Shown here: positions 30,142 through 52,412 of the stretch, one piece after another
How the letters are laid out: each line of letters opens with the position of its first letter
Numbering within the stretch: position 1 is the first letter of the stretch
Position numbers and translations under genes: made by a program
Virus record (IMG/VR): IMGVR_UViG_3300008267_000007
Location: 47,095 to 111,094 of that record
Strand: one strand, 5' to 3'
DNA from: a virus
DNA: 64,000 bases
The notes under the pieces: generated by a model
Database searches by the model: none
What the model was told of the DNA's origin: nothing
The model's input: only the letters and a program-made list of their open reading frames with translations

Positions 30142-31140
30142 ATGATTATTTCTGAAAGAAAACAATTAGGTACGGTATACCACTTTACTAAAATAACTTC
30201 TATAAAATCCATATTAGAATCTAATTCATTTAAGGGGTCTGAAGTAGGAACCTGGAATTTTGAAAGAGATTTCCAATTTTTTAAAAAAGATGAGAAATTT
30301 TTTATCGATAAAGGTATAACCCACTTATATTTTTTCTCTACTACACGTAATAAGTTATTTTACAAAAGACCTTCTCATGGTGTTGGTGGAATGACTGCTC
30401 GTATTGTATTAGATGGGGACAAAATATCCGATAAATATAGATTTGTCCCTTTTAGATATTATGATGATGAACCTAAACATGAAGGTTCAGATGAATCCGA
30501 AGAAAGAATTATATTAGGTCTTAAAAGAGAATTACCTAACGCTAAAAGTTATATTAAAGAGATCCATGTAATGTTGGATTTAATAGAAGATAATGAAGCG
30601 TATTTACAGGAAGCTGAGAAATTGTATAATTATGATCCTTCATTAATTAAGTTTTATTATAAAGAAAAAGAAACTACTTTAGAAGATTATAGAACTAATA
30701 TCTTACCTACTATAGAACCTTATAGAGAAGACGAAATGGATGAAAATGATTCATTTGAGTATAGAGGAGGACCAATATTGCATGAGGGATTTACATCTCA
30801 AAAAGCACCACTAATGGGTAAATTTGTTGATTATACTTGTAGTAGATTAAATATAGATAAACCCAAAATTTCTATTATAAATTCACCTTTATACTCTCAA
30901 AAACATAAAAGTTTTGGAGGATACATGCCATCAGAACAATCAATAAAAGTAGTAGTGCATAATAGAAACATGGCTGATATTTTAAGAACATTAGCTCATG
31001 AGTTAGTACACCATATGCAAAACCTAACTGGAAAAGAATTAAATGGGGAAGATGGGTCAGACATTGAAAATGAAGCTAATGCAATGGCCGGAGTAATAAT
31101 GAGAGAATTTGGACGTGAAAACCCAGAAATATTTGAATAA
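30142..31140 (+). CDS. Fusion of ADP-ribosyltransferase-like domain and zinc metallopeptidase (332 aa)
   Basis: The N-terminal domain has the order His14 (VYHFT), Ser66-Thr-Thr-Arg (FFSTTRNK) and Glu120/121 (SEERIIL), which resembles the H/S/E arrangement of ADP-ribosyltransferase folds such as DarT-like proteins; this is a pattern match, not proof. The C-terminal domain has a zinc site HELVH (286-290) with a third ligand probably Glu309 or Glu311 in ENEANAMAG. Between them, LHE (213-215) fits the T4 prohead protease cleavage rule. T4 packages an ADP-ribosyltransferase (Alt) in the head, so a packaged host-modifying protein is a reasonable idea. The peptidase call is the stronger of the two. 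Confidence 0.7.
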   Translation: MIISERKQLGTVYHFTKITSIKSILESNSFKGSEVGTWNFERDFQFFKKDEKFFIDKGITHLYFFSTTRNKLFYKRPSHGVGGMTARIVLDGDKISDKYRFVPFRYYDDEPKHEGSDESEERIILGLKRELPNAKSYIKEIHVMLDLIEDNEAYLQEAEKLYNYDPSLIKFYYKEKETTLEDYRTNILPTIEPYREDEMDENDSFEYRGGPILHEGFTSQKAPLMGKFVDYTCSRLNIDKPKISIINSPLYSQKHKSFGGYMPSEQSIKVVVHNRNMADILRTLAHELVHHMQNLTGKELNGEDGSDIENEANAMAGVIMREFGRENPEIFE

Positions 31141-31142
31141 TA

Positions 31143-31313
31143 ATGGATGGTAGATTTAGAGAGGCTCTTTATATGCTAAGAATATTAATGGCAGTAGAAA
31201 ATGAATTTGATATTATAATACAAGACACTGAAGTAGAATTTATAAATACTTTTGAAGATCTAATAAACTTAATACAAGAAAAAGAAAATGATATCAATAA
31301 AGGAATTATTTAA
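31143..31313 (+). CDS. Acyl-carrier-protein-like fragment without the serine (56 aa)
   Basis: 56-codon ORF starting 2 nt after the fusion gene and overlapping the next by 26 nt. The segment LMAVENEFDIIIQDTEVEFI followed by NTFEDLINLIQE lines up with helices II-IV of acyl carrier proteins. At the place of the phosphopantetheine Ser in the DSL motif it has Ala (EAL). It could be a decoy or a structural remnant. Similarity is by eye only. Confidence 0.5.
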   Translation: MDGRFREALYMLRILMAVENEFDIIIQDTEVEFINTFEDLINLIQEKENDINKGII

Positions 31314-31824
31314 AGAAGAGTTATCTAAAGCTTACACTATCTATTGTGATATGGATGGTGTACTTTGTGATTTCGAAGCTCGCTTTGAACATTTCACAGG
31401 TTTATCCCCAGATCAATATCGAGCAAAAACTCAAAAAGAATATGGTGATAAAAAAGCAGATGAAATGTTTTGGGATGTAATTGATCACCAAGTAGGAATG
31501 AGATTTTGGAGAGGGATGCATTGGATGCCTGAAGGTAGAGCTTTGTGGGATTATATAAAACCTCATAAACCTACTCTACTCACAGCACCTTCATGGCATG
31601 ACTCTAGTAAAGAAGGGAAAAAAGCCTGGGTTGAAGATCACATACCTGGAACTCCTATAGTTTTTAAACCCGCAGACAAAAAAGCAGATTTATCCGGTCC
31701 TAATACAATTCTTATTGACGATAGAGAAGACACTATTATGAGTTGGAAAGCTAAAAATGGTATAGGAATTTTATATAAAAATACCGAACAAACAATAAAT
31801 GAATTAAAACACTTAGGACTATAA
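31288..31824 (+). CDS. HAD-family 5'-nucleotidase with N-terminal leader (178 aa)
   Basis: HAD motif I DMDGVLCDF (Asp21, Asp23), motif II in LLTAP, motif IV IDDRED (Asp144/145). The family dephosphorylates (deoxy)nucleoside monophosphates. Its first ten residues, MISIKELFKE, resemble the leader shared by nearby proteins and are not needed for the HAD fold. This suggests targeting, perhaps to the capsid. It overlaps the ACP-like ORF and is followed after 3 nt by the next gene. Confidence 0.85.
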   Translation: MISIKELFKEELSKAYTIYCDMDGVLCDFEARFEHFTGLSPDQYRAKTQKEYGDKKADEMFWDVIDHQVGMRFWRGMHWMPEGRALWDYIKPHKPTLLTAPSWHDSSKEGKKAWVEDHIPGTPIVFKPADKKADLSGPNTILIDDREDTIMSWKAKNGIGILYKNTEQTINELKHLGL

Positions 31825-31827
31825 GTT

Positions 31828-32400
31828 ATGTCAACACAATTAAATAGAGAATTCTCAGAACGCGACATACAACGTATGCGTAATATTATTAGTAAAAAAA
31901 CTGGTGATGGTACTCGAATTCAAGCTGGTTATGCCAAAGCACAAATTACTCATATTGAAGGAGATGTTTGGGAAGAAAATGGTAAGACTTGGACTCTTAA
32001 AAACGGTATCAAGCAAACTGTCACTAAACATGATGCCTTAAAAGCTATGGTGGAATTTCCACTTACATGCCCATGTTGTAGTAAGCCAATGAAAGATCAA
32101 CCATTGAATAGAAAAATGTATTCTATACACAACAAGTGTTTTGATTGTGTTATTGAAATGGAAACTAAACTTCGATTAGAGGGTAAATATGATGAATATG
32201 TTAAGGGGATGTTAAACAGTAATAAAAATTCCTCTTTAAATGATGTCGAACAAATGTTTGATGAGTATTTCAACAGTAAGAAAGAAACATATGTTACTGA
32301 GGCAGGTGATATAGAAAAATGGGATGGTGGTAGCATTGACCCTGAATACATAAAAATGGTCAAAGAAAATATAAAACGCCTTAAAGAAACAGAGATATAA
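31828..32400 (+). CDS. Zinc-ribbon-like phage protein, unknown function (190 aa)
   Basis: The N-terminus (SERDIQRMRNIISKKTGDGT) resembles a domain repeated in hypothetical proteins of Bacteroidota and marine phages. Four Cys in CPCC (80-83) and CFDC (near 104-107) form a likely zinc knuckle. The C-terminal 70 residues are acidic and helical. Perhaps a nucleic-acid-binding or virion-associated protein. Confidence 0.65.
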   Translation: MSTQLNREFSERDIQRMRNIISKKTGDGTRIQAGYAKAQITHIEGDVWEENGKTWTLKNGIKQTVTKHDALKAMVEFPLTCPCCSKPMKDQPLNRKMYSIHNKCFDCVIEMETKLRLEGKYDEYVKGMLNSNKNSSLNDVEQMFDEYFNSKKETYVTEAGDIEKWDGGSIDPEYIKMVKENIKRLKETEI

Positions 32401-32401
32401 A

Positions 32402-32409
32402 TATTTATA
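32402..32409 (+). promoter_or_regulatory. Late box 6 (TATTTATA)
   Basis: Octamer 13 nt before the ATG at 32423; it begins right after the preceding stop. Confidence 0.6.
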
Positions 32410-32422
32410 CCAAAACCTAACC

Positions 32423-33055
32423 ATGAAAAAAGAATTCTTAAAGAACATAATTAAAGAAAGCATAACTGATTATCTATCAGCTTTAAATGAAACTAATGCA
32501 GATCCTAGCGTACCTGAAGATTCAACCGATATGGCTTTGGATATGATGAAGAATGGATTACCTACCCAAACTAAAGAATCATTAACATCTACTCCCGGTA
32601 TGATGTTTGAAGATAAAGTAACTAAAGATAGTCATATCTATTTAGTTAAAAAAGCAATGAATGAGTCTACTGAAAAAGATTTAGTTGAGAAAAAATTATT
32701 ATTAGATCTAATTGGTGAAGGATTATATGAAGGTGCTTATTTAAATGAAGCTGCTGCTATGAATGCTGCTAAAAAAGCTCTTAAAGGTAGAGACACACAG
32801 ATTAAAGAAAATGTTAAAAGAGGTAATTCTAAGATATCTGAATTAGAGGATCAAATTGAAGACTTGAAAATTGACATTAAAGCTAAACAAAGTAAAGCTA
32901 TAGACGAACCTGGAATGAGAGATAGTTTAGTAGCTGATGTTGAGGGTTTAATGGCTAAATTAGATAAAAAAGAAGCAGTATTAGAAAAATTAAAAGCTGC
33001 TTTAGAAAAATCTGCACCTAAAAAAGAAAAGAAAGAAACTAAAGATGAAGAATAA
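32423..33055 (+). CDS. Leader-bearing coiled-coil protein, putative head cargo (210 aa)
   Basis: N-terminus MKKEFLKNIIKESITDYLSA with I-x-E at 10-12 and L-x-E (LNE) at 21-23. The central part is acidic and disordered and the C-terminal 100 residues are a lysine/glutamate coiled coil ending KKEKKETKDEE. No enzyme motif. First gene of a leader-rich operon; overlaps the next by 11 nt. Confidence 0.65.
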   Translation: MKKEFLKNIIKESITDYLSALNETNADPSVPEDSTDMALDMMKNGLPTQTKESLTSTPGMMFEDKVTKDSHIYLVKKAMNESTEKDLVEKKLLLDLIGEGLYEGAYLNEAAAMNAAKKALKGRDTQIKENVKRGNSKISELEDQIEDLKIDIKAKQSKAIDEPGMRDSLVADVEGLMAKLDKKEAVLEKLKAALEKSAPKKEKKETKDEE

Positions 33056-34592
33056 TTATACTGAAATTTTATCTAAACATCTATATACTCTAATTAAAGA
33101 GGAACTTGAAGATGGTGAAGATGATCAAGCTAAGAAATATGCTGAGTATGATGTAGTATTAATTCCGGAAGATGTTAGTAAGGCTATTGAAGCCCTATCT
33201 AATGTTAAGAATTATGGACCTTATGCTCAAAATCTAAGAGATCCTAAAACCATTGAACAAGTATTTGGACCAACTACTCCTGCAACTAAAGGTAGAGTAG
33301 CTAAAGAAACATGGAATAAATTTTCAGAAGGTGAAAAACGTGCTAAGGTACTAGATATTAAGTCTAGAGCTCCTCAAGATTTTGCTTCTGTTGAAACACA
33401 ATTAAATCCTAACTTCCAAACTTGGTCTGAAGAGAATGAAGGGGATTTTATTGATTTCTTAATATCACTTCCTGGAGAATCCTTACCAATGAGTTTTTAT
33501 GGTAAGTATGGTGCTAATTTCTTTCTAACTAAAACGCCTGAAAATCTTAAAAAATATAGTGGTGTAATGTCTAAAGGTGTTCACTACACAGCGGATGAAA
33601 ATGAATTAACCTTTCCTAATAATTGGAATCCATTTAAATCTAAAGATTATCTTAAAAAAGTATTAAAACTTATAATGGATGCTGCTGGAGTAGAATATGT
33701 TTTTTCTGAACAAGAATCAGCAGAACAACCTAAAGAAAAAGCAACTAGTATTACTTCACCTGAAAAACCAGGTCAAATAAATTTCGTTAAAACATTCACT
33801 GATGATGAAGGCGAACCAGATAATGATCTAGCTTTAAAATTCAGAAAATTAGTACCAGATGAATTCAAATTTAAAACCAAAGTTGAAAACGGTAAGATTA
33901 CAGTAAGTGATATATCAGCATCTGAAAAGAAAGCTTTGATTAATGCCTCAATTAAATTCCAAGAAAAATATAGTAACCTTTACGAAAATACCAACACAAT
34001 GAAAGACCAATTAAGAACACAGTTAACTTCTATGATTAAAGAAGTTCTTTTAGAAAAAAAATTAACTCCTGCTCAACTTAAGAAAAGAAATAAAGAGGCA
34101 GAAGTTATTAAAAAGAAAAACCCTAAAATCGATAAAGGTGAAGCATATGCAATTGCTACTAAACATTTGAAAGAAGATAAAGGTGATACTTCATTAGATG
34201 ATATTGTAATGTCGTTTGAAGCTGCTCTTGATATTGAGGATGAAGCTAGACAAAAACAAGCTTTAGCTGCGGTTTATAATGAATTAAAAAATAAAGTAAA
34301 AGGTAAAATTAATAAAGCTGTTGATTGGGCTAAAGAAAAAGCACAGGCCTATGATGATAGTTTAGGAGAAGGTCTAAATGAACCTACCCAATTAGCTGCT
34401 ACTCAACAAAATAAAGCTAAATCTAATATAACTAATATTAAAACTTTTTCTCAAGCCGTTAAAGATTTGATAACTCAACTACAAGCAGGAGAAGAAGCAG
34501 ATTATGTAAACACCCCAACTTTTAAATCAGTTATGCAATATTTAGATAAAGCCATAGGGGCTAAAGACACCCCAAAAGCACCCACAAAATAA
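33045..34592 (+). CDS. Leader-bearing protein with a second internal leader (515 aa)
   Basis: N-terminus MKNNYTEILSKHLYTLIKEE with IKE at 17-19. The first 300 residues are a soluble domain of unknown type. At Met319 a second leader-like helix appears (MKDQLRTQLTSMIKEVLLEK), followed by a domain starting LTPAQLKKRNKEAEVIKKKN. This looks like two leader-bearing proteins fused, or an internal start at 33999. Functions unknown. It starts inside the previous gene and ends one base into the next. Confidence 0.65.
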   Translation: MKNNYTEILSKHLYTLIKEELEDGEDDQAKKYAEYDVVLIPEDVSKAIEALSNVKNYGPYAQNLRDPKTIEQVFGPTTPATKGRVAKETWNKFSEGEKRAKVLDIKSRAPQDFASVETQLNPNFQTWSEENEGDFIDFLISLPGESLPMSFYGKYGANFFLTKTPENLKKYSGVMSKGVHYTADENELTFPNNWNPFKSKDYLKKVLKLIMDAAGVEYVFSEQESAEQPKEKATSITSPEKPGQINFVKTFTDDEGEPDNDLALKFRKLVPDEFKFKTKVENGKITVSDISASEKKALINASIKFQEKYSNLYENTNTMKDQLRTQLTSMIKEVLLEKKLTPAQLKKRNKEAEVIKKKNPKIDKGEAYAIATKHLKEDKGDTSLDDIVMSFEAALDIEDEARQKQALAAVYNELKNKVKGKINKAVDWAKEKAQAYDDSLGEGLNEPTQLAATQQNKAKSNITNIKTFSQAVKDLITQLQAGEEADYVNTPTFKSVMQYLDKAIGAKDTPKAPTK

Positions 34593-35149
34593 TGATTAAA
34601 TTAGCTGATATACTAAAAGAGATAGAGGAACCTGTAAATTTTTCAGCATTAGCAAATATAGATGATGTTGTAAAAAAGGAACTAGAAAAAGCACAAGAAG
34701 ACCAACCTGTAAATGAAGTAGTTGGTTTAACAGTAGCTGCATTTATTATAGCTTTACCAGGAATGATTAATGGTATATTTAGAATTATAAAAGCTATAAA
34801 AGATAAAGCTCCTCCAAGATTTAATCTATCTAAATCAGATGATAATCAATCTCATATTGATTATATAATTGATTTTACTAATAAAATGGATGAGTATCTT
34901 GACACTCCTTTTAGATTGATGTTAACCCCTTTTATAAAAGACGAAACAAAAAGAGATAAAGTAGCAAAACTTATAAAAGCTCTAACATTATTAATAATGT
35001 CATTGGGAATAGATATAACAAAATCCCCAAATATAATGGCCGTAGGTAAAGAATTAGCGGGTGATAAATTTACAGATTTAGCTTTTAGTAAAACAACAGC
35101 TGATTTAATAATTAAAGTAAAACCTATAATACAAAATATCTTCAAATAA
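34592..35149 (+). CDS. Leader-bearing membrane-active protein (185 aa)
   Basis: Leader MIKLADILKE, then an acidic linker, a strongly hydrophobic helix at 44-66 (VGLTVAAFIIALPGMINGIF) and a second hydrophobic helix near 124-142. A membrane-inserting protein among probable packaged proteins could take part in DNA or protein passage during ejection; that is speculation. Unknown family. Confidence 0.6.
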   Translation: MIKLADILKEIEEPVNFSALANIDDVVKKELEKAQEDQPVNEVVGLTVAAFIIALPGMINGIFRIIKAIKDKAPPRFNLSKSDDNQSHIDYIIDFTNKMDEYLDTPFRLMLTPFIKDETKRDKVAKLIKALTLLIMSLGIDITKSPNIMAVGKELAGDKFTDLAFSKTTADLIIKVKPIIQNIFK

Positions 35150-35977
35150 ATGGATCAATCAGATTTAAGAAATATAATTAGAGAAACCATAGAACATATC
35201 TTTCAAGAAAGTAAAGTATCTTCTCTTCAAGAAAATGTTTTATTAACTGAAGATAAAGTCTCTAAAAACCTACAATACCATTTAGATAAAAACATCCCAT
35301 TACATGAGAATGCTTTTAGATATGGTACTGAAGCTCAATTATCTTTATTCAAAGAAGTAAGAAAACTTTATAATGAAGATAAACTGTATTTAAATCCTGA
35401 AGATAGGTGGTTAGTTGAAAACACTGATATTGGGAATTATGGTTTATTTGAAGGTCAATTTGTAGCTTTAGATGTACCAATGATTGAAGAGGATGTTAAT
35501 CCTACTGATACAATTACAATGGATGTTCCATTATTTATTCGCATGCTAGAATATGCTAGAGAGGATGCTAAGACCGATATGGACTTACATGATGTGGCAG
35601 AAAAAGCGCTTGCTTTGAGTACTACTGGCGCTACATTAACTATGGCGAATTATGAGAGTATTGCGGGTAAATCGTTGAATGAAGCTGAATATCAAGGTAA
35701 AGAAGTTAAATTAAGTAAACCAAAACGTGGTGGGTCTAAAAAATTCTATGTTTATGTTAAGGACGGAGACAAAGTAAAAAAAGTTTCATTTGGAGCAGCA
35801 GGTGGTGGTCAAAATTTAGCAGTTAAGATTAGAGATCCTAAAGCAAGAAGAGCATTCGCTGCTCGCCAAAATTGTGATAGAAAAAAAGATAAAACAACTC
35901 CTGGATATTGGTCTTGTAATATAGGTCGTTATTGGAAATCATTAGGTGGAGGTTCAAACTTTAGCGGATACTGGTAG
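35150..35977 (+). CDS. Leader-bearing protein with conserved basic C-terminal domain (275 aa)
   Basis: The leader region MDQSDLRNIIRETIEHIFQE has I-x-E at 10-12. The C-terminal about 80 residues (KKFYVYVKDGDKVKKVSFGA, then ARRAFAARQNCDRKKD and YWSCNIGRYW) form a basic Cys/Trp domain that I recall from many large marine phages, function unknown. An LNEA site just before it fits prohead-protease cleavage, which would release this domain. The stop shares its last base with the next gene's GTG. Confidence 0.7.
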   Translation: MDQSDLRNIIRETIEHIFQESKVSSLQENVLLTEDKVSKNLQYHLDKNIPLHENAFRYGTEAQLSLFKEVRKLYNEDKLYLNPEDRWLVENTDIGNYGLFEGQFVALDVPMIEEDVNPTDTITMDVPLFIRMLEYAREDAKTDMDLHDVAEKALALSTTGATLTMANYESIAGKSLNEAEYQGKEVKLSKPKRGGSKKFYVYVKDGDKVKKVSFGAAGGGQNLAVKIRDPKARRAFAARQNCDRKKDKTTPGYWSCNIGRYWKSLGGGSNFSGYW

Positions 35978-36360
35978 TGGATGATTTAAACGAAAAAAAG
36001 AAAAAACGTGATAGATGTTTACGTATAGCTGATCGAAAATATAATAAACCATCAGCTTATAAATCAGCTGCTGCTGAAAGATGTCGTCAGGGTGATATAT
36101 GGAAAGATTTAAAAGAAGCCTTTAAACAAGTTCTTCAAGAAGATGAATCACTTTATAAATGGCTTAAAAGACAAGGCCCACCAGGTAAAGAAGGAGGATG
36201 GGTAGATTGTAATACTTGTCGTAAAGTAGACGGTAAAACAAAATGTAAAGCATGTGGTAGGAAAAAAGGAGAAAAACGTGCAAAATATCCTTCATGCCGT
36301 CCTACACCTAAAAAATGTAAAGATCCTGGAAAGGGTAAAACTTGGGGAAAAACAAAATGA
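35977..36360 (+). CDS. Cys-rich basic protein, DUF5872-like, GTG start (127 aa)
   Basis: Begins at GTG (the only in-frame start option near the previous stop). The N-terminal part is basic (KKKKRDRCLRIADRKYNKPS) and the C-terminal part has the pattern GGWVDCNTCR, CKACGRKKGEKR and YPSCRPTPKKC, which I associate with a domain shared by phages and giant-virus/algal proteins. Several Cys suggest metal binding. A helix FKQVLQE in the middle carries a possible L-x-E site. It overlaps the next gene by ATGA. Confidence 0.65.
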   Translation: MDDLNEKKKKRDRCLRIADRKYNKPSAYKSAAAERCRQGDIWKDLKEAFKQVLQEDESLYKWLKRQGPPGKEGGWVDCNTCRKVDGKTKCKACGRKKGEKRAKYPSCRPTPKKCKDPGKGKTWGKTK

Positions 36361-36602
36361 TAAAACTACAAGACATATTAACAGAAAATTATGGTGGACC
36401 AGGTGAAATGGTTTTACCTCCAAACCATAAAGCAGGATTAAAAGTACCTAAAGGTGGTTCATGTTGTGCTAATTGTAAATGGTGGAAACAAGAAGAAAAA
36501 ATTTGTGTTAGTACTTATTATGTTGAGTGGGCGGGTACAAATACTATACCATATGCCGCTGATGAATATTGCACAAATTGGTGGGAACCTATAACTAAAT
36601 AA
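36357..36602 (+). CDS. HiPIP-like Cys-rich protein with leader (81 aa)
   Basis: Start set at 36357, an ATGA overlap giving leader MIKLQDILTE; a longer frame from 36342 lacks this logic. Four Cys (37, 40, 50, 72) in CANCKWW, ICVS and YCTNWWEP follow the spacing style of high-potential iron-sulfur proteins. It could carry an iron-sulfur cluster or zinc. Unknown role. Confidence 0.65.
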   Translation: MIKLQDILTENYGGPGEMVLPPNHKAGLKVPKGGSCCANCKWWKQEEKICVSTYYVEWAGTNTIPYAADEYCTNWWEPITK

Positions 36603-36606
36603 TATC

Positions 36607-36951
36607 ATGATAAAATTAAACAACTTACTAAACGAAGCTACCCTCGACAAAATATTCCACATTAATGGAACTCTTATTGTTGATGATAATGCTAGAAACC
36701 AAAAAGACATCCTTTCAGATGTTCGAGCTTTACCTGGCATTACAGTGGTAAGAAACGTGGAGATGGATCAAGATCCTACCTCAAGATACTTTAGAAGTAG
36801 ATTAGAAGTAAAAATCGATCCCTATCCATACACAAAACAACATAAGTTCAATGGGGAAGAAACTATTCAAACCATTGCGGATAACATAAAAAAGGTACCT
36901 GGTGTAATAGGATTTAAACAAGATGGTGTTACTTATGTTACTGAAGTATAA
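36607..36951 (+). CDS. Leader-bearing ferredoxin-fold-like protein (114 aa)
   Basis: Leader MIKLNNLLNE followed by Ala, the same length and ending as T4 internal-protein leaders. Two copies of a helix-strand pattern (ILSDVRALPGITVVRNVEM and IADNIKKVPGVIGFKQDG) suggest a ferredoxin-like alpha/beta fold. No catalytic residues evident. Confidence 0.65.
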   Translation: MIKLNNLLNEATLDKIFHINGTLIVDDNARNQKDILSDVRALPGITVVRNVEMDQDPTSRYFRSRLEVKIDPYPYTKQHKFNGEETIQTIADNIKKVPGVIGFKQDGVTYVTEV

Positions 36952-37218
36952 ATGAAACCCTATCAAGAAGTTATAGATAGAGACAATTCACGTTTACGTG
37001 AATTTAAAACTAATATAGATACTCATGAGTTAGTATGGCATAAAGATCAAAAAGATCGTCATATTACTATATTAGAAGGAGGAGGGTGGCAATTTCAAAT
37101 GGATAATGAATTGCCTTTAATTCTTCAAAAAGGAGATAATATATTTATACCTAAAGAGACCTACCATAGAGTAATAAAGGGTTCTTCTGATTTATTAATT
37201 AGCATAATAGAAACATAA
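36952..37218 (+). CDS. Cupin-fold protein (88 aa)
   Basis: Compact beta-barrel pattern with VWHKDQKDRHITILEGGG, then LQKGDNIFIPKETYHRVIKG, the two cupin motifs including metal-type His residues. Small cupins are common in large phages; substrate unknown. It has no leader. Abuts both neighbours. Confidence 0.75.
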   Translation: MKPYQEVIDRDNSRLREFKTNIDTHELVWHKDQKDRHITILEGGGWQFQMDNELPLILQKGDNIFIPKETYHRVIKGSSDLLISIIET

Positions 37219-37953
37219 ATGAGTATTAAACAATACAAATTAAAAGATTTACCTGATAAAGTAAGGAACCCCCATACAAGTATTAGATTTAAAGGAGATA
37301 AAACAACCTATTCTAGCATATTTGTAACTTCTAGTAATAAGTCTGTTAGAGTGAAAAATGAACAAACTGGTGAAACCAGAACTTTCCCTATTAAAGATAT
37401 AATTAGAATAGGTAATGATGATATTCAAATTGTTAATGAGAGTTTAGAACTCCTTAAGCAAATTATCAAAGAGGAAATTGAGGATTTCAAATCTTCTGAA
37501 CCTCTTACATTTGAAGGTAACCCATTAGAATTTATCTTACAAAAATATGATACATTAGACGCTACAATGATTGATCTAATGACACCATCATTTAGAGATT
37601 ACATAACTGGGATATTCATTATAGCACCTAAACCAACCACTTTTAGAGTATTGCTTCATAATAACCAAGAATTCCATTTAATATACGGTCCTCAGGCTTA
37701 CATTGCTAGAATATCAGGTAAAAAATATAACTTAATTAATTTGTCTGAAGAGGAATTTGCTATCAAATCTATAGCCCAATTATTAGAGTTAGGTATGCCT
37801 CCAGGAAGTGAAGGTCCAGCTGAAGAGAATAAAAATGAAGCGGACTTACAAAGCAATTCCCAAGAAGAGACCCAAGCCGAAACACCACCTGAAGAAGAAA
37901 CACCTCCAGCTGATTTAAAAGAATCAATTAAAAAATTTAGAATAAAATTATAA
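37219..37953 (+). CDS. Protein of unknown function with acidic Pro-rich tail (244 aa)
   Basis: A small beta domain (YSSIFVTSSNKSVRVKNEQT) at the N-terminus, then a leader-like helix near 74-90 (SLELLKQIIKEEIEDF), a mixed domain and a Glu/Pro-rich tail from 200. The internal helix has IKE, resembling the leaders of neighbouring genes, as if a leader-bearing protein had gained an N-terminal domain. Last gene before terminator-promoter element 2. Confidence 0.55.
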   Translation: MSIKQYKLKDLPDKVRNPHTSIRFKGDKTTYSSIFVTSSNKSVRVKNEQTGETRTFPIKDIIRIGNDDIQIVNESLELLKQIIKEEIEDFKSSEPLTFEGNPLEFILQKYDTLDATMIDLMTPSFRDYITGIFIIAPKPTTFRVLLHNNQEFHLIYGPQAYIARISGKKYNLINLSEEEFAIKSIAQLLELGMPPGSEGPAEENKNEADLQSNSQEETQAETPPEEETPPADLKESIKKFRIKL

Positions 37954-37958
37954 ATAAA

Positions 37959-37988
37959 TTTGGCTCCCCAAAGGAGCCTTATTATATT
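37959..37988 (+). promoter_or_regulatory. Terminator-promoter element 2
   Basis: TTTG (37959-37962), 20-nt spacer containing GGCTCC-CCAA-AGGAGCC, TATATT (37983-37988). Upstream of the exonuclease gene. Confidence 0.65.
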
Positions 37989-38010
37989 ATACTAATTTAA
38001 CAAATCTGTT

Positions 38011-38796
38011 ATGAACAAAATTAATAAAAAGAGATTATTTTTTGACATCGAAACCAGCCCAAACATTGGATTTTTCTGGCAATCGGGATATAAATTAAAT
38101 ATACCATATGGTAATATTATTAAAGAGAGAGCCATTATTTGTATTTGTTATAAATGGGAAGGTGACGATAAGGTATATTCTTTAAATTGGGATAAAAACC
38201 AAGATGATAAAGAATTATTAGAAAAATTTATTACTGTAGCTAATGATGCCCATGAATTAGTAGGTCACAATGGGGATAAATTTGATTTGCCTTGGATTAG
38301 AACACGTTGTCTATTCCATGGTATTCCTTGTTTCCCTAATTACACTACAATTGATACTTTAAAACAAGCTCGTTCTAAATTTAGATTCAATAGTAATACT
38401 TTGAATTACATTGCCCAATATTTAAATGTTGGTGAAAAATCTGAAACTGGTGGATTTGATTTGTGGAAAGATATTGTATTAAACAATAGTCAAACTGCAA
38501 TGAAAACCATGGTAGATTATTGTAAAAATGATGTAGTAATTCTAGAGAAAGTATTCCACCATCTTAAAAATTATGTTCCTCATAAATCTCATTTTGGAGT
38601 ATTAGCAACAGGTGAAAAAACATCTTGTCCCGAATGTGGATCAGAAGATTTAAAACATTCTCAAACTCGTTATTCAGCCGCTGGAACTCCACGTGTTCAA
38701 ATGCAGTGTAGAGATTGTCACAAATACCACACAGTAGCTAATAGAACTTATGAAGCCATAACAGCCCAACAATTACAAGAGGGGGTAAAAAAGTAA
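38011..38796 (+). CDS. DEDD-family 3'-5' exonuclease with zinc ribbon (261 aa)
   Basis: RNase H-fold exonuclease: Asp12/Glu14 (FFDIETSP), Asp92 in GHNGDKFDLPW, Asp174 in YCKNDVVIL. A C-terminal zinc ribbon has CPEC (206-209) and CRDC (233-236). Probably acts on phage DNA in replication or repair. It is a single-gene unit placed between structural blocks, after a hairpin promoter and before a late box. Confidence 0.85.
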   Translation: MNKINKKRLFFDIETSPNIGFFWQSGYKLNIPYGNIIKERAIICICYKWEGDDKVYSLNWDKNQDDKELLEKFITVANDAHELVGHNGDKFDLPWIRTRCLFHGIPCFPNYTTIDTLKQARSKFRFNSNTLNYIAQYLNVGEKSETGGFDLWKDIVLNNSQTAMKTMVDYCKNDVVILEKVFHHLKNYVPHKSHFGVLATGEKTSCPECGSEDLKHSQTRYSAAGTPRVQMQCRDCHKYHTVANRTYEAITAQQLQEGVKK

Positions 38797-38804
38797 TATT
38801 TATT
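38797..38804 (+). promoter_or_regulatory. Late box 7 (TATTTATT)
   Basis: Octamer variant overlapping the exonuclease stop region, 13 nt before the ATG at 38818. Confidence 0.5.
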
Positions 38805-38817
38805 TGTAAACCATACT

Positions 38818-39042
38818 ATGAAATTAAACGAATACCTAAAAGAAATACAAGAAGTCCAAATAAAAGTTGGAGATAGTTTTGCTTTAAGAGGAGATATTGG
38901 TATATTCAAAAAGGGAGAAACAGTGGAAGTTATTGATAAAAAATCTTATGGTAATGATATTGAATTAACATTGTCTAACAACAAAGGTAAAGAAGATAAG
39001 TTTTATTTAGATAAAAACGATGACTTTGAAGAACTAGGATAA
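38818..39042 (+). CDS. Leader-bearing small beta-barrel-like protein (74 aa)
   Basis: Leader MKLNEYLKE, then a compact SH3-like strand pattern (VGDSFALRGDIGIFKKGETV and DIELTLSNNKG). No family identified. One-base overlap with the next leader-bearing gene. Confidence 0.65.
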   Translation: MKLNEYLKEIQEVQIKVGDSFALRGDIGIFKKGETVEVIDKKSYGNDIELTLSNNKGKEDKFYLDKNDDFEELG

Positions 39043-39497
39043 TGAAAAGATCAGAATTAAAAGAGATTATTAGAGAAGAGTTCAAAAGGATTCTTAGAGA
39101 ACAAGACCCTGAACAAGACCCTGAACTTAGTATTGGAGACAGAATAGAACCTGAACCCGAGGCTGAACCTTCACCTGAACCCGATAAACCAGAAACTGAA
39201 ATCCCCGAAGAACAACCACTTCAAAATATTTCTAAGTTAGATGCAGCTCAAAAGATAAGGGATACTAAAGGAAGAATGTTTACAGTTACTTTTATTAAAA
39301 AGTCAAATGGTCAAAAGAGGGTAATGAATGCCCGTTTAGGAGTTAAAGCATATCTAAGAGGAGGAGTATTACCTTACGATCCTAATACAAAAGGATTAAT
39401 TCCTTGCTATGATGTGCAGAAAAAAGATTACACAATGATTAACATCCCAGGTATTGTTAATTTAAAAGTTGGGGGAGTAGAATATAATGTAATATAA
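39042..39497 (+). CDS. Leader-bearing protein with Pro/Glu linker (151 aa)
   Basis: Leader MKRSELKEIIREEFKRILRE with LKE, IRE and LRE sites, an acidic Pro/Glu linker (residues 22-62), then a globular domain (RMFTVTFIKKSNGQKRVMNA) that resembles the WYL/SH3-like domain of small phage proteins. Unknown function. Terminator-promoter element 3 follows. Confidence 0.65.
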   Translation: MKRSELKEIIREEFKRILREQDPEQDPELSIGDRIEPEPEAEPSPEPDKPETEIPEEQPLQNISKLDAAQKIRDTKGRMFTVTFIKKSNGQKRVMNARLGVKAYLRGGVLPYDPNTKGLIPCYDVQKKDYTMINIPGIVNLKVGGVEYNVI

Positions 39498-41773: not shown

Positions 41774-42421
41774 ATGAACATTAATAATGATTTTGATTTA
41801 AAGAAAGCAAAGAATTTCCTTTTAACTGAAAATTTTGACGCTTCTTACTTACAAGAAGAAGATTTAGATGAGAACGAAGAAGTTTCTCTAGAAGAAATGG
41901 CTAAACTAACTAGTGCAGGAGGTGAATATACTCCACTAGGACAAAAAGTAGCAGCTATTATTAAAGCACAACCTGAATTAGAAAAATCAGCATTGTTGAA
42001 AGTTCTTAATACCGATCCTGAAATTGCTAAAATGTTAGATGATAGCGAAGAAGAATTACATCAAAATCAAACAAATAAATTTGCTGCTTTAGTTCGTGGT
42101 TCAAGAGAATTAGGACAAAGAGGTAGAAAAGCAGATCCAAACAAACCTGCTGCTGAACCAAAAGAGCCAAGAGTTGCTAAAGCCCCGGGAGAAAAGAGAA
42201 TTAAAATCACTACTCCTAAATCTGAACCAACAACAGACGAAACACCAATCGATAATACAATTGGATTAGGTCAAGATGAGATGATTAAAGAAAAACGTAA
42301 ACTTGAAGCTGAAAGAATGGAAGCAGCTAAGGCTTATAAAGCTGGTGATGAGTCAGTTTTACCTAAGATGAAAGAATTAACTGCTCAAATTAACAAATTG
42401 AATAAAAAATTAGGAGTATAA
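41774..42421 (+). CDS. Protein upstream of terminase, possible small terminase subunit or head protein (215 aa)
   Basis: The N-terminal part DLKKAKNFLLTENFDASYLQ carries LTE and LQE sites like the leader set; the middle is helical (GQKVAAIIKAQPELEKSALL), followed by a Lys/Pro-rich linker and a C-terminal coiled coil (KRKLEAERMEAAKAYKAGDE). Its position just before the large terminase would suit gp16 (small subunit), but leader and composition also suit a head-internal protein. I cannot decide. Confidence 0.5.
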   Translation: MNINNDFDLKKAKNFLLTENFDASYLQEEDLDENEEVSLEEMAKLTSAGGEYTPLGQKVAAIIKAQPELEKSALLKVLNTDPEIAKMLDDSEEELHQNQTNKFAALVRGSRELGQRGRKADPNKPAAEPKEPRVAKAPGEKRIKITTPKSEPTTDETPIDNTIGLGQDEMIKEKRKLEAERMEAAKAYKAGDESVLPKMKELTAQINKLNKKLGV

Positions 42422-46045: not shown

Positions 46046-46900
46046 ATGGCTAATATTAAGCATAATAAATATCGTAATACTGGTATCCTATTTGAACTTC
46101 TTGTAAGAAAAATTACAGCTGATACTATGTCTAACCAAGACTCCAAAGCTGTATCTTTAATTAAGAAATACTTTGTTAATACTGAATTATCAAAAGAAAA
46201 CAAATTATATCAATCTATATCAAGAGTTCAAAATATTAGTGAGGCCAAAGCTGAATCTATTATTTCTACTATATTAGAAATAAATAAATCTTTAAATCAA
46301 GTTAAATTATCTAAAGAAAAGTTTAATTTGATAAAAGAGATTAAGGCTAATTTTGACATAGATGATTTTTTTAAAGCGAAAATTAGTAACTACAAGTTAT
46401 TATCTTCAACTTATACTTTATTAGAGGCAAATTTGTTTCCTTCACACCATGTGGATACTATAATTAATTCTAAGATGAACATCTTAGAACATATAGCTCA
46501 GTCACAACTTGTAAAAGAAATACAACCTACAGTTAGTGAATTTGAGTTATTAGACAAAGGAACTCGCGCATTAGTTTATAAATTGATGTTGGAAAAATTC
46601 AATACCAAATTTGAAGTATTATCTGATGATCAAAAAGATGTGTTAAAAGAATACATTAATAACATCTCTAATACTACTAATCTTAAAAAGTATGTAGATG
46701 TTAAGTTTACATCGTTAAAGGAATCTCTTTTAAAATTATTACCTAAAATAGAGGATGCTACTATTAAAATTAAAGTAAATGAGACCATAAATCTTATTAA
46801 CCCTATTCTAGAATCTAAAACATTAAAAGACGATAATATTATTGCTCTATTACAATATCAGGAACTGCATAGTGAGTTAAAAAAGATTCATAATGGATAA
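46046..46900 (+). CDS. Conserved head-region protein, unknown (284 aa)
   Basis: The N-terminus HNKYRNTGILFELLVRKITA is a sequence I associate with proteins next to the portal gene in marine T4-like phages. All-helical, charged. Possibly a head assembly or core protein; no T4 counterpart assigned. Overlaps the next gene by 8 nt. Confidence 0.65.
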   Translation: MANIKHNKYRNTGILFELLVRKITADTMSNQDSKAVSLIKKYFVNTELSKENKLYQSISRVQNISEAKAESIISTILEINKSLNQVKLSKEKFNLIKEIKANFDIDDFFKAKISNYKLLSSTYTLLEANLFPSHHVDTIINSKMNILEHIAQSQLVKEIQPTVSEFELLDKGTRALVYKLMLEKFNTKFEVLSDDQKDVLKEYINNISNTTNLKKYVDVKFTSLKESLLKLLPKIEDATIKIKVNETINLINPILESKTLKDDNIIALLQYQELHSELKKIHNG

Positions 46901-47603
46901 AGATAAATTAAGAGAATTAGTAAAACAGTGTATAGAAGAAATGTCTGCCACTGCGGGTGCTGGGGGGTTTATGGGCAGAGTAATGCTTAAAAAACCCAAA
47001 TATGAAAGCACCACTAAAGCTTTTACTCGTAATCCTGCTCGTCCGGTAACTGATCAAGATAAAAACTCACCTGCTGGATTTGAAACCATGCCTGATTCTG
47101 CTAAAACTTATATTAAAGGAGGATTTAGAGCAATTAAACCCAAAGAGAGAATTGATGCCAAAGATTTATGGAAGGGCCAACATTTAGAAGAAAAAATTGC
47201 TGTCCTAACTCCCAAAGCATTCAGAAAATCTAAAAAACAACATGAGACTTCTAAATCAGGACATGAAGATTTACCTAATCTCGATAAATATTTTGAACTA
47301 GTGAAATTTAAAATAGTTGACTCAAAAAAAGAAGAAGAACAACTTAATGAGGTTCGTTATTCTCAATTTAAAAATGAGACTAAAAACAGAAAACCCCAAG
47401 AGCAATTGCATATGGGTGTTAAAGAAATCCAACGTAAGTTAGAGGAGATTAATAAATTAGTTGATTTTACTTCTCGTATGAAAACTGAATTAAAAGGTGA
47501 TGAGGATCAAATGAACTATTTAAAACGTACTCATAATGCGTTGTTTAGAATAAATGAAAAAATCCAAGAAATTAATAATAAAATTAAAGGTTTAACTGAA
47601 TAA
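46893..47603 (+). CDS. Leader-bearing head-region protein (236 aa)
   Basis: N-terminus MDKDKLRELVKQCIEEMSAT resembles the leader set (LRE at 6-8). A Gly patch and basic region follow, then a long C-terminal coiled coil (IQRKLEEINKLVDFTSRMKT). An internal LNE (near 152) could be a protease site. Probably a prohead core or internal protein given its position before the protease and scaffold. Shares one base with the next gene. Confidence 0.65.
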   Translation: MDKDKLRELVKQCIEEMSATAGAGGFMGRVMLKKPKYESTTKAFTRNPARPVTDQDKNSPAGFETMPDSAKTYIKGGFRAIKPKERIDAKDLWKGQHLEEKIAVLTPKAFRKSKKQHETSKSGHEDLPNLDKYFELVKFKIVDSKKEEEQLNEVRYSQFKNETKNRKPQEQLHMGVKEIQRKLEEINKLVDFTSRMKTELKGDEDQMNYLKRTHNALFRINEKIQEINNKIKGLTE

Positions 47604-47764: not shown

Positions 47765-48979
47765 ATGACAGTTCAAAATTTATATACTCAATATTTAGAT
47801 GGTAAAGTTACCAAAGCTAAATTTCTTTACGAGGTGCGTAGAGATCAAAATCTTACTATGATTTCACATCATAATAATTTTGATGATACCGTTAAAATCC
47901 TTAAAAACAAAAACATCATCTCAGAAAAAGCTTCAAAAGAATCTACTGGGAAACAAGAAGTAGATATCATAGCTAAAACTATTGATATGGTTAACCCATA
48001 TGAGTATTCTAGAGGTATGAAATATGAACTTGAAATGGTAGATGTTCCTACTAGAACTGATTTAACTGAAGAAGAAGTACTTAAAGCACAGAAAAAAGTA
48101 TTAGCTAACCTAACTAAAAATCCACAATTTTATTTTGATAAATTGAATGGTAAAGGTGAAGTAAGTGATAAATGGATTGAAACTACTAAGAAAAACATCG
48201 ATGCTATTGGTAAAGGAAAAGCTGCTAAACTTATTAGAGAAGGTGAAATGTCAGATAGAGTAATAGCTAGAAAAGCTATTAACTTATATGATAAAGGGGA
48301 AGAATTATACTTACAAGGCAAAACCCAAGAAGCTGAAAAGTATAGACAACAAGCTTTACAAATTGCTGGTGAAGTAGGAATGGGAGAAGCTGAATTTCCT
48401 AAATATCAAAATCATATTAGAGAAGGATACGAAAATGATGGTCTAGTAAAAGAAGATCAACAAAATGCTATTTTTAAAAAATACGCTCAAGCTACAGGTA
48501 TTCCAATTGATAATTTAAAATCAATGGTTAGAGACGCTAAGGAAAAACAAATAGAAGAACATGGGTCACGTTTTGATAGAGTAGCTGATGTTAATGCTGA
48601 TTCTAGTCCAATAAGTGAAGATATAGATTTAGGTCATCAAGATAACGAACCTCACATGATCAAAGCTGAATTATATTTAATTGCTAAACAAGCAACTGAA
48701 TTATATAAAACTATTGATGCCATAGACAACATGGGAGAAATTGATTTTCCTCACTGGTGGCAAGCAAAAATTGTCTTAGCTAAAAACTATTTAACTGGAG
48801 CTAAAGATTATTTAGACGGAGCACTATCCGTAGGTAATGAAGACGGGGAAATTGAAGAGGCTATTGCTTTAAAAGATAAAGCTGGTAACACCCAATATGC
48901 TAAAGATTCAACTGAAGCTACAAATATAGAAAGAGCAGCTAGAACCAAAGGTGTAATCTTAACAAAAACTACAGTATAA
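47765..48979 (+). CDS. Conserved head-region protein, probable virion/prohead component (404 aa)
   Basis: Helical protein. Conserved-looking core [20 protein letters not shown] followed by an [19 protein letters not shown] helix; two further helical regions follow, the last containing paired acidic repeats ([20 protein letters not shown]). No enzyme motif. It directly precedes the prohead protease and shares one base with it, so it is likely a head assembly protein. Confidence 0.65.
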
Positions 48980-49596
48980 TGAGTAAATCATTATTAATAG
49001 AATACGCTCTATTCACCCCTAAATCCGCAGTATTAACTGAGGGTAAGGGTGATAGAAATTTAATGGTTGAAGGTGTAATTCAAAGAGCTGACTCTAAAAA
49101 CCAAAATGGTAGAGTTTACCCTAAAGATATTCTTGAAAGGGAAGTTGAAAAATATATCCAAGGACCAGTTACCGAAAATAGAGCTTTAGGTGAATTAGAT
49201 CACCCAGAATCTATGGTAATTAACCTAAAAAATGTATCCCACAACATCAAAAAATTATGGTGGAATGGAGATGATTTAATGGGTAAAGTGGAAGTACTAC
49301 CAACACCTTCAGGTAACATTTTAAAAGAATTGTTTTTAAATAAAATTACTGTAGGTATTTCATCTCGTGGTATGGGCTCTGTTCAATCATTAGGAGAAGG
49401 TACAGTAGAAGTACAAGATGATTTTGAATTGCTTTGTTGGGATTTTGTTTCAACTCCATCAACACAAGGGGCTTTTATGACACCAACAGGATTAAGTGAG
49501 GGATATAAACCCCAACATAATAACAAATACTCAAAAATAAATACATTAGTATCAGACATCATCTGTTCCCAATCAGGTGTATGTTGTATAAGATAA
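48979..49596 (+). CDS. gp21: Prohead protease gp21
   Basis: 205 aa serine protease of the T4 gp21/herpesvirus assemblin type: His75 in ELDHPES and Ser128/129 in GISSRGMGS, on the usual VEGVIQRADSKNQNGRVYP start. It digests the scaffold and trims head proteins after (Leu/Ile)-x-Glu in T4. An LTE near its own N-terminus (AVLTEGKG) could be a self-processing site. Followed by a double hairpin. Confidence 0.93.
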   Translation: MSKSLLIEYALFTPKSAVLTEGKGDRNLMVEGVIQRADSKNQNGRVYPKDILEREVEKYIQGPVTENRALGELDHPESMVINLKNVSHNIKKLWWNGDDLMGKVEVLPTPSGNILKELFLNKITVGISSRGMGSVQSLGEGTVEVQDDFELLCWDFVSTPSTQGAFMTPTGLSEGYKPQHNNKYSKINTLVSDIICSQSGVCCIR

Positions 49597-49775: not shown

Positions 49776-50729
49776 ATGTCAAACACAAACACTAAAATTT
49801 TTAGTGAAGCAATTGCTGAAGCTAAATCTATTAGAGAAACAGCAATGGCCAACGCCAAGCTAGCACTTGAAGAAGCTTTCGCTCCTCGTATGCAAGAAAT
49901 GATGTCTTCTAGATTAGAAGCCTTAGCTGAAGACGACGAAGAAATAGAAGAAAATTTCAAAAAATCAAATGGTGAAATGCCTGGAGATGAGCCAATTGAA
50001 GAAATTTCATTAGAAGAACTTTTAGCTGAACTTGAAGCACTTGAAGAAGGTGAAGAGGAAGGTCACGAAGAAGAGAAAATGGAAGAAAACCAAATCTTCG
50101 AAGAAGCTGAAGATGACGACACAGTAGGAGAAATTACAGTTGAGGATCTTAAAGACATCGTCAGAGAAGTAGTTTCAGACCTAATGGGTAGTTCAGAAGA
50201 AGAAGCTCCAGAAGAAGAAGAAGGTGAAGAGGAAGAAGCAGGTGAAGAAGAAGCTCCTGAAATGGAAGATGAATTCAATCTTGAAGAAATCCTAGCTGAA
50301 ATTGAATTAGAAGAAGCAGCTGCACACGAAGCTGGTGAAGCTAAAATTCAAGAAAAAGTTGAAGATGATAAAGTTAATGAAGAATTAGAAGAGGCAATGA
50401 ACACTATCGCTACTTTACGTTCTGAATTAAACGAAGTTAATCTTTTGAATGCTAAATTACTTTACGTTAACAAGTTATTCAAATCTAAGAATTTAACAGA
50501 AGCTCAAAAAGTAAAAGTAATTAACGCTTTTGATAGAGCTGAAACAGTTAAAGAAACTAAGAATATTTTTGAAACGTTACAAGAATCTCTAAACGTAGCA
50601 CCAGCTAAGAATTCCATAAAAGAATCTCTTTCATACGCTTCTAAACCAGTTGGAGTTGCTGATAGAAAACCAATCGTTGAAAACAATGATTTTATGTTAA
50701 GAATGCAAAAACTTGCAGGAATTATTTAA
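49776..50729 (+). CDS. gp22: Prohead scaffold core protein gp22-like
   Basis: 317 aa, extremely acidic (long Glu runs at about 60-190), helical, with many L-x-E sites. Position between protease and major capsid gene is that of T4 gp22. The C-terminal third (RSELNEVNLLNAKLLYVNKL, then FKSKNLTEAQKVKVINAFDR) is the recognisable conserved scaffold end. It would guide capsid assembly and then be digested by gp21. Confidence 0.88.
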   Translation: MSNTNTKIFSEAIAEAKSIRETAMANAKLALEEAFAPRMQEMMSSRLEALAEDDEEIEENFKKSNGEMPGDEPIEEISLEELLAELEALEEGEEEGHEEEKMEENQIFEEAEDDDTVGEITVEDLKDIVREVVSDLMGSSEEEAPEEEEGEEEEAGEEEAPEMEDEFNLEEILAEIELEEAAAHEAGEAKIQEKVEDDKVNEELEEAMNTIATLRSELNEVNLLNAKLLYVNKLFKSKNLTEAQKVKVINAFDRAETVKETKNIFETLQESLNVAPAKNSIKESLSYASKPVGVADRKPIVENNDFMLRMQKLAGII

Positions 50730-50765: not shown

Positions 50766-52412
50766 ATGTCAAACATGATTAATTCATTATTAGAGACATC
50801 TAACCCTTACCAATCAGTACAAAAAGACGCTAGCAGATTAGCATCTAAATGGGGTAAGTCAGGTCTTTTAGAAGGTATTTCTAACGAAACAGATAAGTCT
50901 AACATGGCTATCATCTTAGAAAACCAAGCAAAACAATTAGTAGTAGAATCTTCTTCTACTGGAACAGGTGGTACTTTTACTGCTGGAACAGGTGAGCAAT
51001 ATGCTGCTGTAGCATTACCATTAGTACGTAAAGTATTTGGTCAAATCGCTGCTAAAGAATTTGTTTCTGTTCAACCAATGAGCTTACCAGCTGGTTTGGT
51101 ATTCTTCTTAGATTTCCAATACGGATCTAGCGTAAAACCATTTACTAGCGGTGATTCACTTTATGGTACTCCTTCAGCTAACTTTGGTAACGAAGCAGCA
51201 GGTGGTTTATATGGTGCAGGTAGATTTGGATACTCAGTTAACGAATTCTCAGCTTCAGATGCTGTAGTTTCTGGTTCAGAAATTGCTATCTCAACTGCGT
51301 TCTCTGATGTTAACTATACAGCAGAATTATCAGCTTCTTTTGTAAATTCTCAAATTCTTAAAGTATTAGTAGCTACATCATCTTTATCAGGATTTGATGT
51401 TAACGCTGTTAGATCATTCATTCCTACATCAGGATCATTCCAAGCTGCTAACTTACTTCCAGCATTTACTAAAGTAAATGGTGCTAATATTGAGTTCTTC
51501 TTTACAGGTTCAGCTACTGGAACTATCACAACTGGAAGTAACACTTTCACAGTATACTACAGCAAAGGTCCTAGAGATAACTCAAGAGGTGATTTCGAAG
51601 ATGCTTCTGGAGCAGGTTTCCCTAACGCACAATCTAACACTGAAATCGCTATTCCTGAAATCAATGTTCAAATGCGTTCAGAGGCTATCGTTGCGAAAAC
51701 TCGTAAATTGAAAGCACAATGGACACCAGAATTCTCTCAAGATCTTAATGCATTCCATTCACTTGATGCTGAAGCTGAATTGACTTCTATCTTATCAGAG
51801 TATATCTCATTAGAGATTGATCTTGAAATCTTAGATATGTTGATCCAAAACGTTCCAACAAACCAAGTTGAAGTATGGTCTGCTAAAGTAGGTAACCAAC
51901 TTAACAATGCTAAAACAGGATTTGATGCTAATACATCTGGTGTATACTACACTCAAATGTCTTGGTTCCAAACTCTTGGAATTAAATTGCAAAAAATCTC
52001 TAACACTATTCACCAAAGAACTTTAAGAGGTGGTGCTAACTTCATCGTTATTTCTCCAACTGTTGCTACTATCTTGGAATCTATTCCTGGATTTGCTGCT
52101 GATACAGATGGTGATTCAGCTAAAATGACTTACGCATTTGGTGTTCAGAAAATTGGTCAATTAAACTCTAGATATAAAGTTTATAAAAACCCATACATGA
52201 CAGAAAACACTATCTTGATGGGATTCAGAGGTAACCAATTCTTGGAATCAGGTGCAGTTTATGCTCCATACGTTCCGTTGATCATGACTCCATTAGTATA
52301 CGATCCAGCTACCTTCACACCAAGAAAAGGTATTATGACTCGTTACGCTAAGAAAATGGTACGTCCGGAATTCTACGGTAAAGTATTAGTTGCTGATTTA
52401 AATGCAATCTAA
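50766..52412 (+). CDS. gp23: Major capsid protein gp23
   Basis: 548 aa, typical gp23 length. Conserved segments include PLVRKVFGQIAAKEFVSVQP, TRKLKAQWTPEFSQDLNAFH and GMLTRYAKKM-like GIMTRYAKKMVRPEFYGKV at the end. The N-terminal propeptide probably ends after a (Leu/Ile/Val)-x-Glu such as LVVE near residue 62. Codon use leans to C-ending codons more than its neighbours, as expected for the most highly expressed gene. Followed by a strong terminator. Confidence 0.95.
   Translation: MSNMINSLLETSNPYQSVQKDASRLASKWGKSGLLEGISNETDKSNMAIILENQAKQLVVESSSTGTGGTFTAGTGEQYAAVALPLVRKVFGQIAAKEFVSVQPMSLPAGLVFFLDFQYGSSVKPFTSGDSLYGTPSANFGNEAAGGLYGAGRFGYSVNEFSASDAVVSGSEIAISTAFSDVNYTAELSASFVNSQILKVLVATSSLSGFDVNAVRSFIPTSGSFQAANLLPAFTKVNGANIEFFFTGSATGTITTGSNTFTVYYSKGPRDNSRGDFEDASGAGFPNAQSNTEIAIPEINVQMRSEAIVAKTRKLKAQWTPEFSQDLNAFHSLDAEAELTSILSEYISLEIDLEILDMLIQNVPTNQVEVWSAKVGNQLNNAKTGFDANTSGVYYTQMSWFQTLGIKLQKISNTIHQRTLRGGANFIVISPTVATILESIPGFAADTDGDSAKMTYAFGVQKIGQLNSRYKVYKNPYMTENTILMGFRGNQFLESGAVYAPYVPLIMTPLVYDPATFTPRKGIMTRYAKKMVRPEFYGKVLVADLNAI

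Follow-up and report, generated by a model that had tools for sequence, protein, structure and literature searches.

Interchangeable N-terminal leaders resembling the T4 capsid-targeting sequence in a T4-like phage contig and its relatives

In one T4-like phage contig and in its relatives, both marine and freshwater, many unrelated proteins start with one of a few interchangeable tags that look like the packaging and cleavage signal of phage T4. The window analysed is a 64-kb stretch (positions 47,095 to 111,094) of the 111-kb viral contig IMGVR_UViG_3300008267_000007; coordinates refer to this window, and its features lie on the + strand. IMG/VR contigs and a few isolates were examined, the closest isolate found being Flavobacterium phage immuto (gp23 identity 59%). 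A sequence-only reading had noted T4-like leaders on proteins of the block 30142-39497 and proposed that they direct cargo into the capsid. The leader observation in this contig is confirmed. The T4-like leaders stand, but several distinct classes had been overlooked, as had the recurrence of the scaffold protein's C-terminal tail in one of them. The leaders very probably form a cleavable capsid-targeting cargo system of the T4 type, expanded into several classes, one of them imitating the scaffold tail.

In T4, the ten residues of the capsid-targeting sequence (CTS), MKTYQEFIAE, suffice for packaging; residues 4 and 7 serve targeting, residues 8 and 10 serve processing, and the protease gp21 cuts after (I/L)xE (PMC9026906). 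The leaders described here are like the CTS of T4 IPI-III and Alt (Mullaney and Black 1996, reviewed in PMC9026906) in being N-terminal and about ten residues long, with hydrophobic residues at 4 and 7 and I/L-x-E at 8-10. The functional register (hydrophobic 4, 7 and 8; Glu10) is matched by MIKLADILKE (34592), MIKLQDILTE (36357), MIKLNNLLNE (36607) and MISIKELFKE (31288, with F at position 8), all of which are present where they had been reported. This register, M..Φ..ΦΦ.E, was fixed by published work. It is found in 3 called genes of the contig against 0.40 expected. Gene starts were taken from a simple gene caller, with two set by hand; 31288 becomes a fourth match once its start is moved to an upstream ATG. 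Three of four long relatives are likewise enriched (G001, 9 genes against 0.43 expected; G004, 6 against 0.37; G016, 5 against 0.51); the other, G002, is only suggestive (2 against 0.42, p=0.07). Calibration on T4 returned IPII, IPIII, gp24, Alt and gp61.1 against 0.63 expected, and the first four are known gp21-processed head proteins. T4 gp61.1 (L310 18966-19130) is a hypothetical protein of 54 amino acids (aa), the start of which, MKTFKEFIKE, is a near-copy of the T4 CTS. At the DNA level, the window has 3 matches to the exact pattern that codes for MIKLx(D/N)ΦΦxE (0.00 expected; none in 100 shuffles).

Looser motifs are also over-represented, and leaders outside the T4 register follow ΦΦxE with different spacing. 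The enrichment anticipated by the sequence-only reading is seen, as [LIF]xE at residues 8-12 is found in 25 of 152 genes against 13.9 after shuffling, a count reached by 1 of 1000 shuffles; with the Glu exactly at residue 10 there are 7 against 2.8 expected (18/1000 shuffles). ΦΦxE with its Glu at residues 8-14 is present in 8 of the 16 genes of block 30142-39497, where 1.2 are expected from shuffling and 0.6 from internal positions. Genome-wide it is found in 22/152 genes (8.6 expected), and outside the head region in 12/124 (7.0 expected, p about 0.05). The T4 CTS register is a better detector than crude ΦΦxE. Leader classes, defined by regular expressions drawn up after the data had been seen, number 6-11 genes per genome against well under 1 expected.

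Four classes are distinguished. Class B (MIKLxDΦΦxE) has the T4-like register and class C is an amphipathic LRxIIRE; class A (NFDLKKFLxENKLTxNSKxLxE) and class D (INExKRMQxLAGIIxE) were found in relatives, and IMG/VR was scanned with coding patterns for these two. Class D is carried by 107 distinct proteins in 77 body clusters and class A by 68 proteins in 23 clusters, the cluster counts being upper bounds because fast-evolving bodies may fail to cluster. In two class D genes of a single contig, nucleotide identity falls from about 87% over the leader to about 30% in the 90 bases that follow; identities within leaders are inflated, because the pattern scans impose leader residues. One leader is thus found on unrelated bodies. 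The reverse is also seen: the 38818 and 39042 bodies, which follow class B/C leaders here, follow class D leaders in relatives. The 35977-type body is preceded by MDDLNE, MENLNE, ENIIKEILSE, DILKQILSE, MIKLVDILLESILE or MIKLTDLLIEMLLE, and the 46893-type body, which starts (E/M)S..G..GG, is preceded in relatives by VLEE, LLDE, IIDE, QLEE or YLEE. In both, ΦxE lies at the body start or within a few residues before it. The modular set of unrelated bodies that had been proposed is borne out by this exchange. In two relatives (L149, L152) the nucleotidase is fused behind a metallopeptidase-like domain that is separate at 30142; the junction holds MSILRE or GMLME, each followed by D, which matches expectation if the site is cut. 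The leader of the HAD 5'-nucleotidase (leader 31288..31317, open reading frame (ORF) 31288-31824) lies outside the confident HAD fold in an AlphaFold2 (AF2) model built from window and IMG/VR rows only; the mean confidence score (pLDDT) is 49 over residues 1-10 and mostly >85 over the body.

Leader genes are nearer gp21 than other genes are in 5/5 genomes (p=0.0004 to 0.008). PHROG matches identify the terminase, the portal, the gp21-type protease and the major capsid protein of the window, and homologues of the T4 head genes are found in order (gp17/gp20/gp21/gp22/gp23), gp22 being assigned via position and homology to relatives only. The gp21-like protease reported at 48979 is real; it is the proposed cleaving enzyme (48979..49596), matches the phrog_207 head maturation protease (E=1.5e-55) and has the GELxHP and SSRGxGS motifs of T4 gp21. 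The gp22-type scaffold (49776..50729) lies between gp21 and gp23 and is homologous to the scaffolds of relatives. The T4 scaffold gene likewise lies between the protease and capsid genes. The gp23-type major capsid protein (50766..52412) has a likely propeptide end at ..ENQAKQLVVE, followed by SSSTG, and the junction L[VI]xE is conserved in 55 distinct relatives; this conserved junction is the basis on which the 48979 protease is predicted to have (I/L)xE specificity. Among 16 long contigs picked solely for class A or D leaders, 14 have gp21, which is thus present in every contig of the set with recognisable head genes. The two contigs without it are probably fragments, because gp23 and terminase matches are missing too. 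A similar cluster is found in Pelagibacter phage HTVC008M (L316 40563-45719), with a kinase, a cytidyltransferase, a 35150-type domain and a 5'-nucleotidase; its protein starts are partly leader-like (FILKE, LVQE).

The scaffold ends in the C-terminal tail DFMLRMQKLAGII (50688..50726), which reappears in relatives as the N-terminal class D leader. The tail, R[MLFW][QK]xLA[GN]I, ends 65/65 complete gp22 sequences; a 66th row is a gp22-gp23 fusion, which ends in gp23 and is outside the 65. Tails are conserved though the gp22 of five compared genomes is only 33-69% identical to that of the window. Class D (INEIKRMQQLAGIINE) has the tail string as its core, so that in relatives the string stands as a cleavable-looking N-terminal leader on all 107 distinct class D proteins. 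It is also found at the C-terminus of another protein near gp21 (L024, L034, L040, L044, L048). Non-scaffold proteins of the relatives thus carry the scaffold C-terminal motif. Because class D repeats this tail, its cargo probably binds at the scaffold-tail site; by analogy with phage 80alpha and SaPI1, class D leaders would take cargo to the place on the shell where the scaffold binds. In 80alpha, the scaffold attaches to the shell through a helix and hook made by its last residues, and SaPI1 CpmB, which shares this motif, attaches in the same manner (PMC5644958). As in CpmB, which shares the C-terminal RIIK of the 80alpha scaffold and uses it to bind the capsid inner face, a non-scaffold protein carries a scaffold C-terminal motif. 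Unlike CpmB, which carries it at its own C-terminus and changes capsid size, the motif here is mostly N-terminal, apparently cleavable and found on many proteins; the likeness is drawn without a claim of sequence relation. The tail probably came before its use as a leader, because Microcystis phage Mel-JY01 keeps it (ERMKKLAGIVK) and has few leaders. In L257 (minus strand, 947-aa ORF), gp22 and gp23 are in one frame and the tail RWQVLAG runs directly into the gp23 propeptide; the scaffold-capsid fusion is either genuine or the product of a deletion in the assembly.

As the same sequence rule is found in the same genomic setting, the route known from T4 is the best explanation. The capsid-targeting reading is supported by the register, the presence of gp21, the clustering near head genes, the modular exchange and the position of the 31288 leader beyond the folded body. 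As the prohead assembles, a leader would dock its protein to either the scaffold core or the inner shell. A cut by gp21 after ΦxE would then free the cargo inside the capsid, and the freed cargo would be ejected with the DNA. Leaders of classes A, B, C and D move between cargo genes. The docking partner, cleavage, packaging and delivery are predicted from sequence.

Several points weigh against this capsid-targeting reading. Block genes 30142, 31828, 36952, 37219 and 38011 have no clear leader, and the assignments of 33045, 12912 and class C generally are soft. No class D leader was found in the stretches examined of the window's own contig, and the tail motif was not found there outside gp22. 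The gp22 proteins of HTVC008M and T4 are without the tail; class D is therefore not universal in T4-like phages. Finally, crude ΦΦxE counts carry little weight by themselves (T4, 16 against 12.4; G002, 10 against 9.5).

The leaders might be docking peptides that are never cut and that keep minor structural proteins permanently attached to the inner capsid, portal or core. Docking alone explains both the sharing of leaders and their clustering near head genes, and a T4 CTS with Asp at position 10 still targets without processing (PMC9026906). This is nevertheless unlikely: the Glu of ΦxE is kept at the body start, or a few residues before it, even where the rest of the leader is replaced, and the conserved junction after the gp23 propeptide has ΦΦxE as well. 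A peptide that served docking alone would have no need of this. It is very improbable that the shared starts are left over from gene duplication, or that they act as recombination handles and encode a peptide with no targeting role. Neighbouring genes in a contig do share leader DNA and are followed by unrelated DNA. However, dN/dS is 0.34 for leader codons and 0.28 for bodies, which shows constraint at the protein level, and orthologous bodies carry dissimilar leaders with the same ΦxE ending. Leaders may have spread by recombination, which is compatible with targeting. The same dN/dS values led to rejection of the leaders as an RNA or start-codon feature only. Chance or composition can hardly account for the leaders either. 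AT-rich phage genes often start with amphipathic helices rich in Lys, Leu, Ile and Glu, LxE is common, crude [LI]xE is only about 1.75-fold over shuffles, and crude ΦΦxE does not reach significance in T4 or G002. However, exact register and class tests are about 10-fold or more over shuffles in most genomes, long class D and class A strings recur on unrelated bodies, and classes A-D are absent from the 50-kb stretches examined of two control phages, phi38:1 and phi4:1 (marine Bacteroidetes phages that are not T4-like). Chance is untenable because relatives carry one leader on dozens of bodies and one body with different leaders; it is refuted for the leader classes and may hold for single members such as 33045.

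The capsid-targeting system proposed here resembles T4 in having a gp21-type protease in the head operon and unrelated bodies behind the leader. Unlike the few of T4, there are some 6-11 leader genes per genome in at least four classes, known here from sequence alone; leader swapping on orthologous bodies is demonstrable, and one class is nearly identical to the scaffold tail. Phage P1 offers another parallel (PMC9024508): N-terminal residues of DarB suffice for capsid entry, and DarB acts in the next host. Unlike the case here, DarB is one large protein, no separate scaffold is identified in P1 and no shared leader family is described. In the giant phages phiKZ and SPN3US, head-protein propeptides are likewise cut by a gp21-like protease and are proposed to target the prohead (PMC5694885); they differ in being mostly >100 residues long, with no gp22 counterpart confirmed. 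Among the papers that could be searched, none contained the leader strings. The balance tips slightly towards a wider proposal, in which a large T4-like group loads an open-ended, exchangeable cargo through a cleavable copy of the scaffold tail (D) or equivalent leaders (A, B, C), with leader DNA as the recombination joint through which new cargo is gained. If the targeting role is true, leaders would predict from sequence which proteins of uncultured phages, mostly encoded by 'hypothetical' genes, travel in the virion and are injected along with the DNA, and they would provide a natural set of leaders with which proteins could be loaded into phage heads. The match between class D and the scaffold tail also suggests a concrete, testable answer to the question of what a CTS binds.

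The longer leader variants listed by the sequence-only reading at 32423, 33045, 35150, 38818, 39042, 12912 and 46893 are all present. Class B leaders begin three proteins of the block. MIKLADILKE (34592..34621) is on a 185-aa protein (34592-35149); a search for relatives with this protein found none, and later BLAST within the fetched loci found three, with (V/M)IKFVNILKE on a 39%-identical protein in L257/L251. MIKLQDILTE (36357..36386) is on an 81-aa Cys-rich protein (36357-36602), with MIKLTKILEE in G002 and MIKLSELLEPE in G001. MIKLNNLLNE (36607..36636) is on a 114-aa protein (36607-36951), and G016 has the identical 10-aa leader on a protein that is 66% identical. MKLNEYLKE (38818..38844) begins a 74-aa protein (38818-39042) whose body in L115 has the scaffold-tail leader MKQYINEAQRMQKLAGMVNE. 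Class C is represented by MKKEFLKNIIKE (32423..32458) on a 210-aa protein (32423-33055), G016 keeping LKNIIKESITDYLS; by MDQSDLRNIIRETIEHIFQE (35150..35209) on a 275-aa protein with a phrog_7595 domain (35150-35977), with MSNLDIKFLIRETLELILQE on an 85%-identical protein in G016; and by MKRSELKEIIRE (39042..39077) on a 151-aa protein (39042-39497; phrog_2267). The last body has MEMINEIKRMQKLAGILKE in L178 (66% identity over 92 aa), and this counterpart matches Pfam WYL_2. A class C leader-like start, MNLDAFRKVIRE (12912..12947), is also found on a 161-aa protein (12912-13397) among tail-region genes.

Some leaders had been missed. A minimal leader, MDDLNE (35977..35994, GTG start), is on a 127-aa Cys-rich protein (35977-36360). 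A class A-like leader, MNINNDFDLKKAKNFLLTE (41774..41830), is on a 215-aa protein (41774-42421) just upstream of the terminase, with a weak match to the phrog_6807 'internal head protein' (E=0.005). Two FNLKQFLAEGKLLKE copies lie outside the window, at contig positions 32061 and 33178. Between portal and protease, MDKDKLRELVKQCIEE (46893..46940) begins a 236-aa protein (46893-47603). The C-terminus of the portal protein (45940-46005) is ..KLFEESNLLNEDNLLKEDK, with two LLxE motifs.

Few cargo functions can be recognised. The HAD nucleotidase body had been read correctly (phrog_2643, E=1.4e-25; confident AF2 model). A phmmer search of it against PDB gave no match; Foldseek gave HAD-fold matches, the best being a deoxyribonucleotidase-like protein (E=1.1e-5). 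Other recognisable bodies are a Zeta_toxin/AAA-type kinase (G004) and the WYL_2 domain. For 108 leader proteins, Pfam searches assigned few functions (Zeta_toxin/AAA kinase, WYL_2, DUF5872), and no common cargo function is therefore claimed. A possible ADP-ribosyltransferase cargo (L291:5387-5770; weak Tox-ART-HYD1, E=0.001) was discarded, its AF2 pLDDT being 46. The 30142-31140 protein, which is not a clear leader protein, has a C-terminal metallopeptidase-like domain (HELVHH), and its N-terminal half has a YHFT..STTRN..ESEERI spacing reminiscent of ADP-ribosyltransferases.

Leader-like stretches also occur within proteins. The weakest leader case, the long start MKNNYTEILSKHLYTLIKE (33045..33101), is on a 515-aa protein (33045-34592) that has an internal leader-like MKDQLRTQLTSMIKEVLLE some 320-330 residues in, which suggests a fusion of two cargo proteins and a cleavage site inside the product. 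Open frames of L169, L105, L177 and L183 have a class D leader about 300 codons in. At 37219-37953 a leader-like VNESLELLKQIIKEEIEDF is found mid-protein; in relatives, the downstream part begins proteins or sits inside longer fusions.

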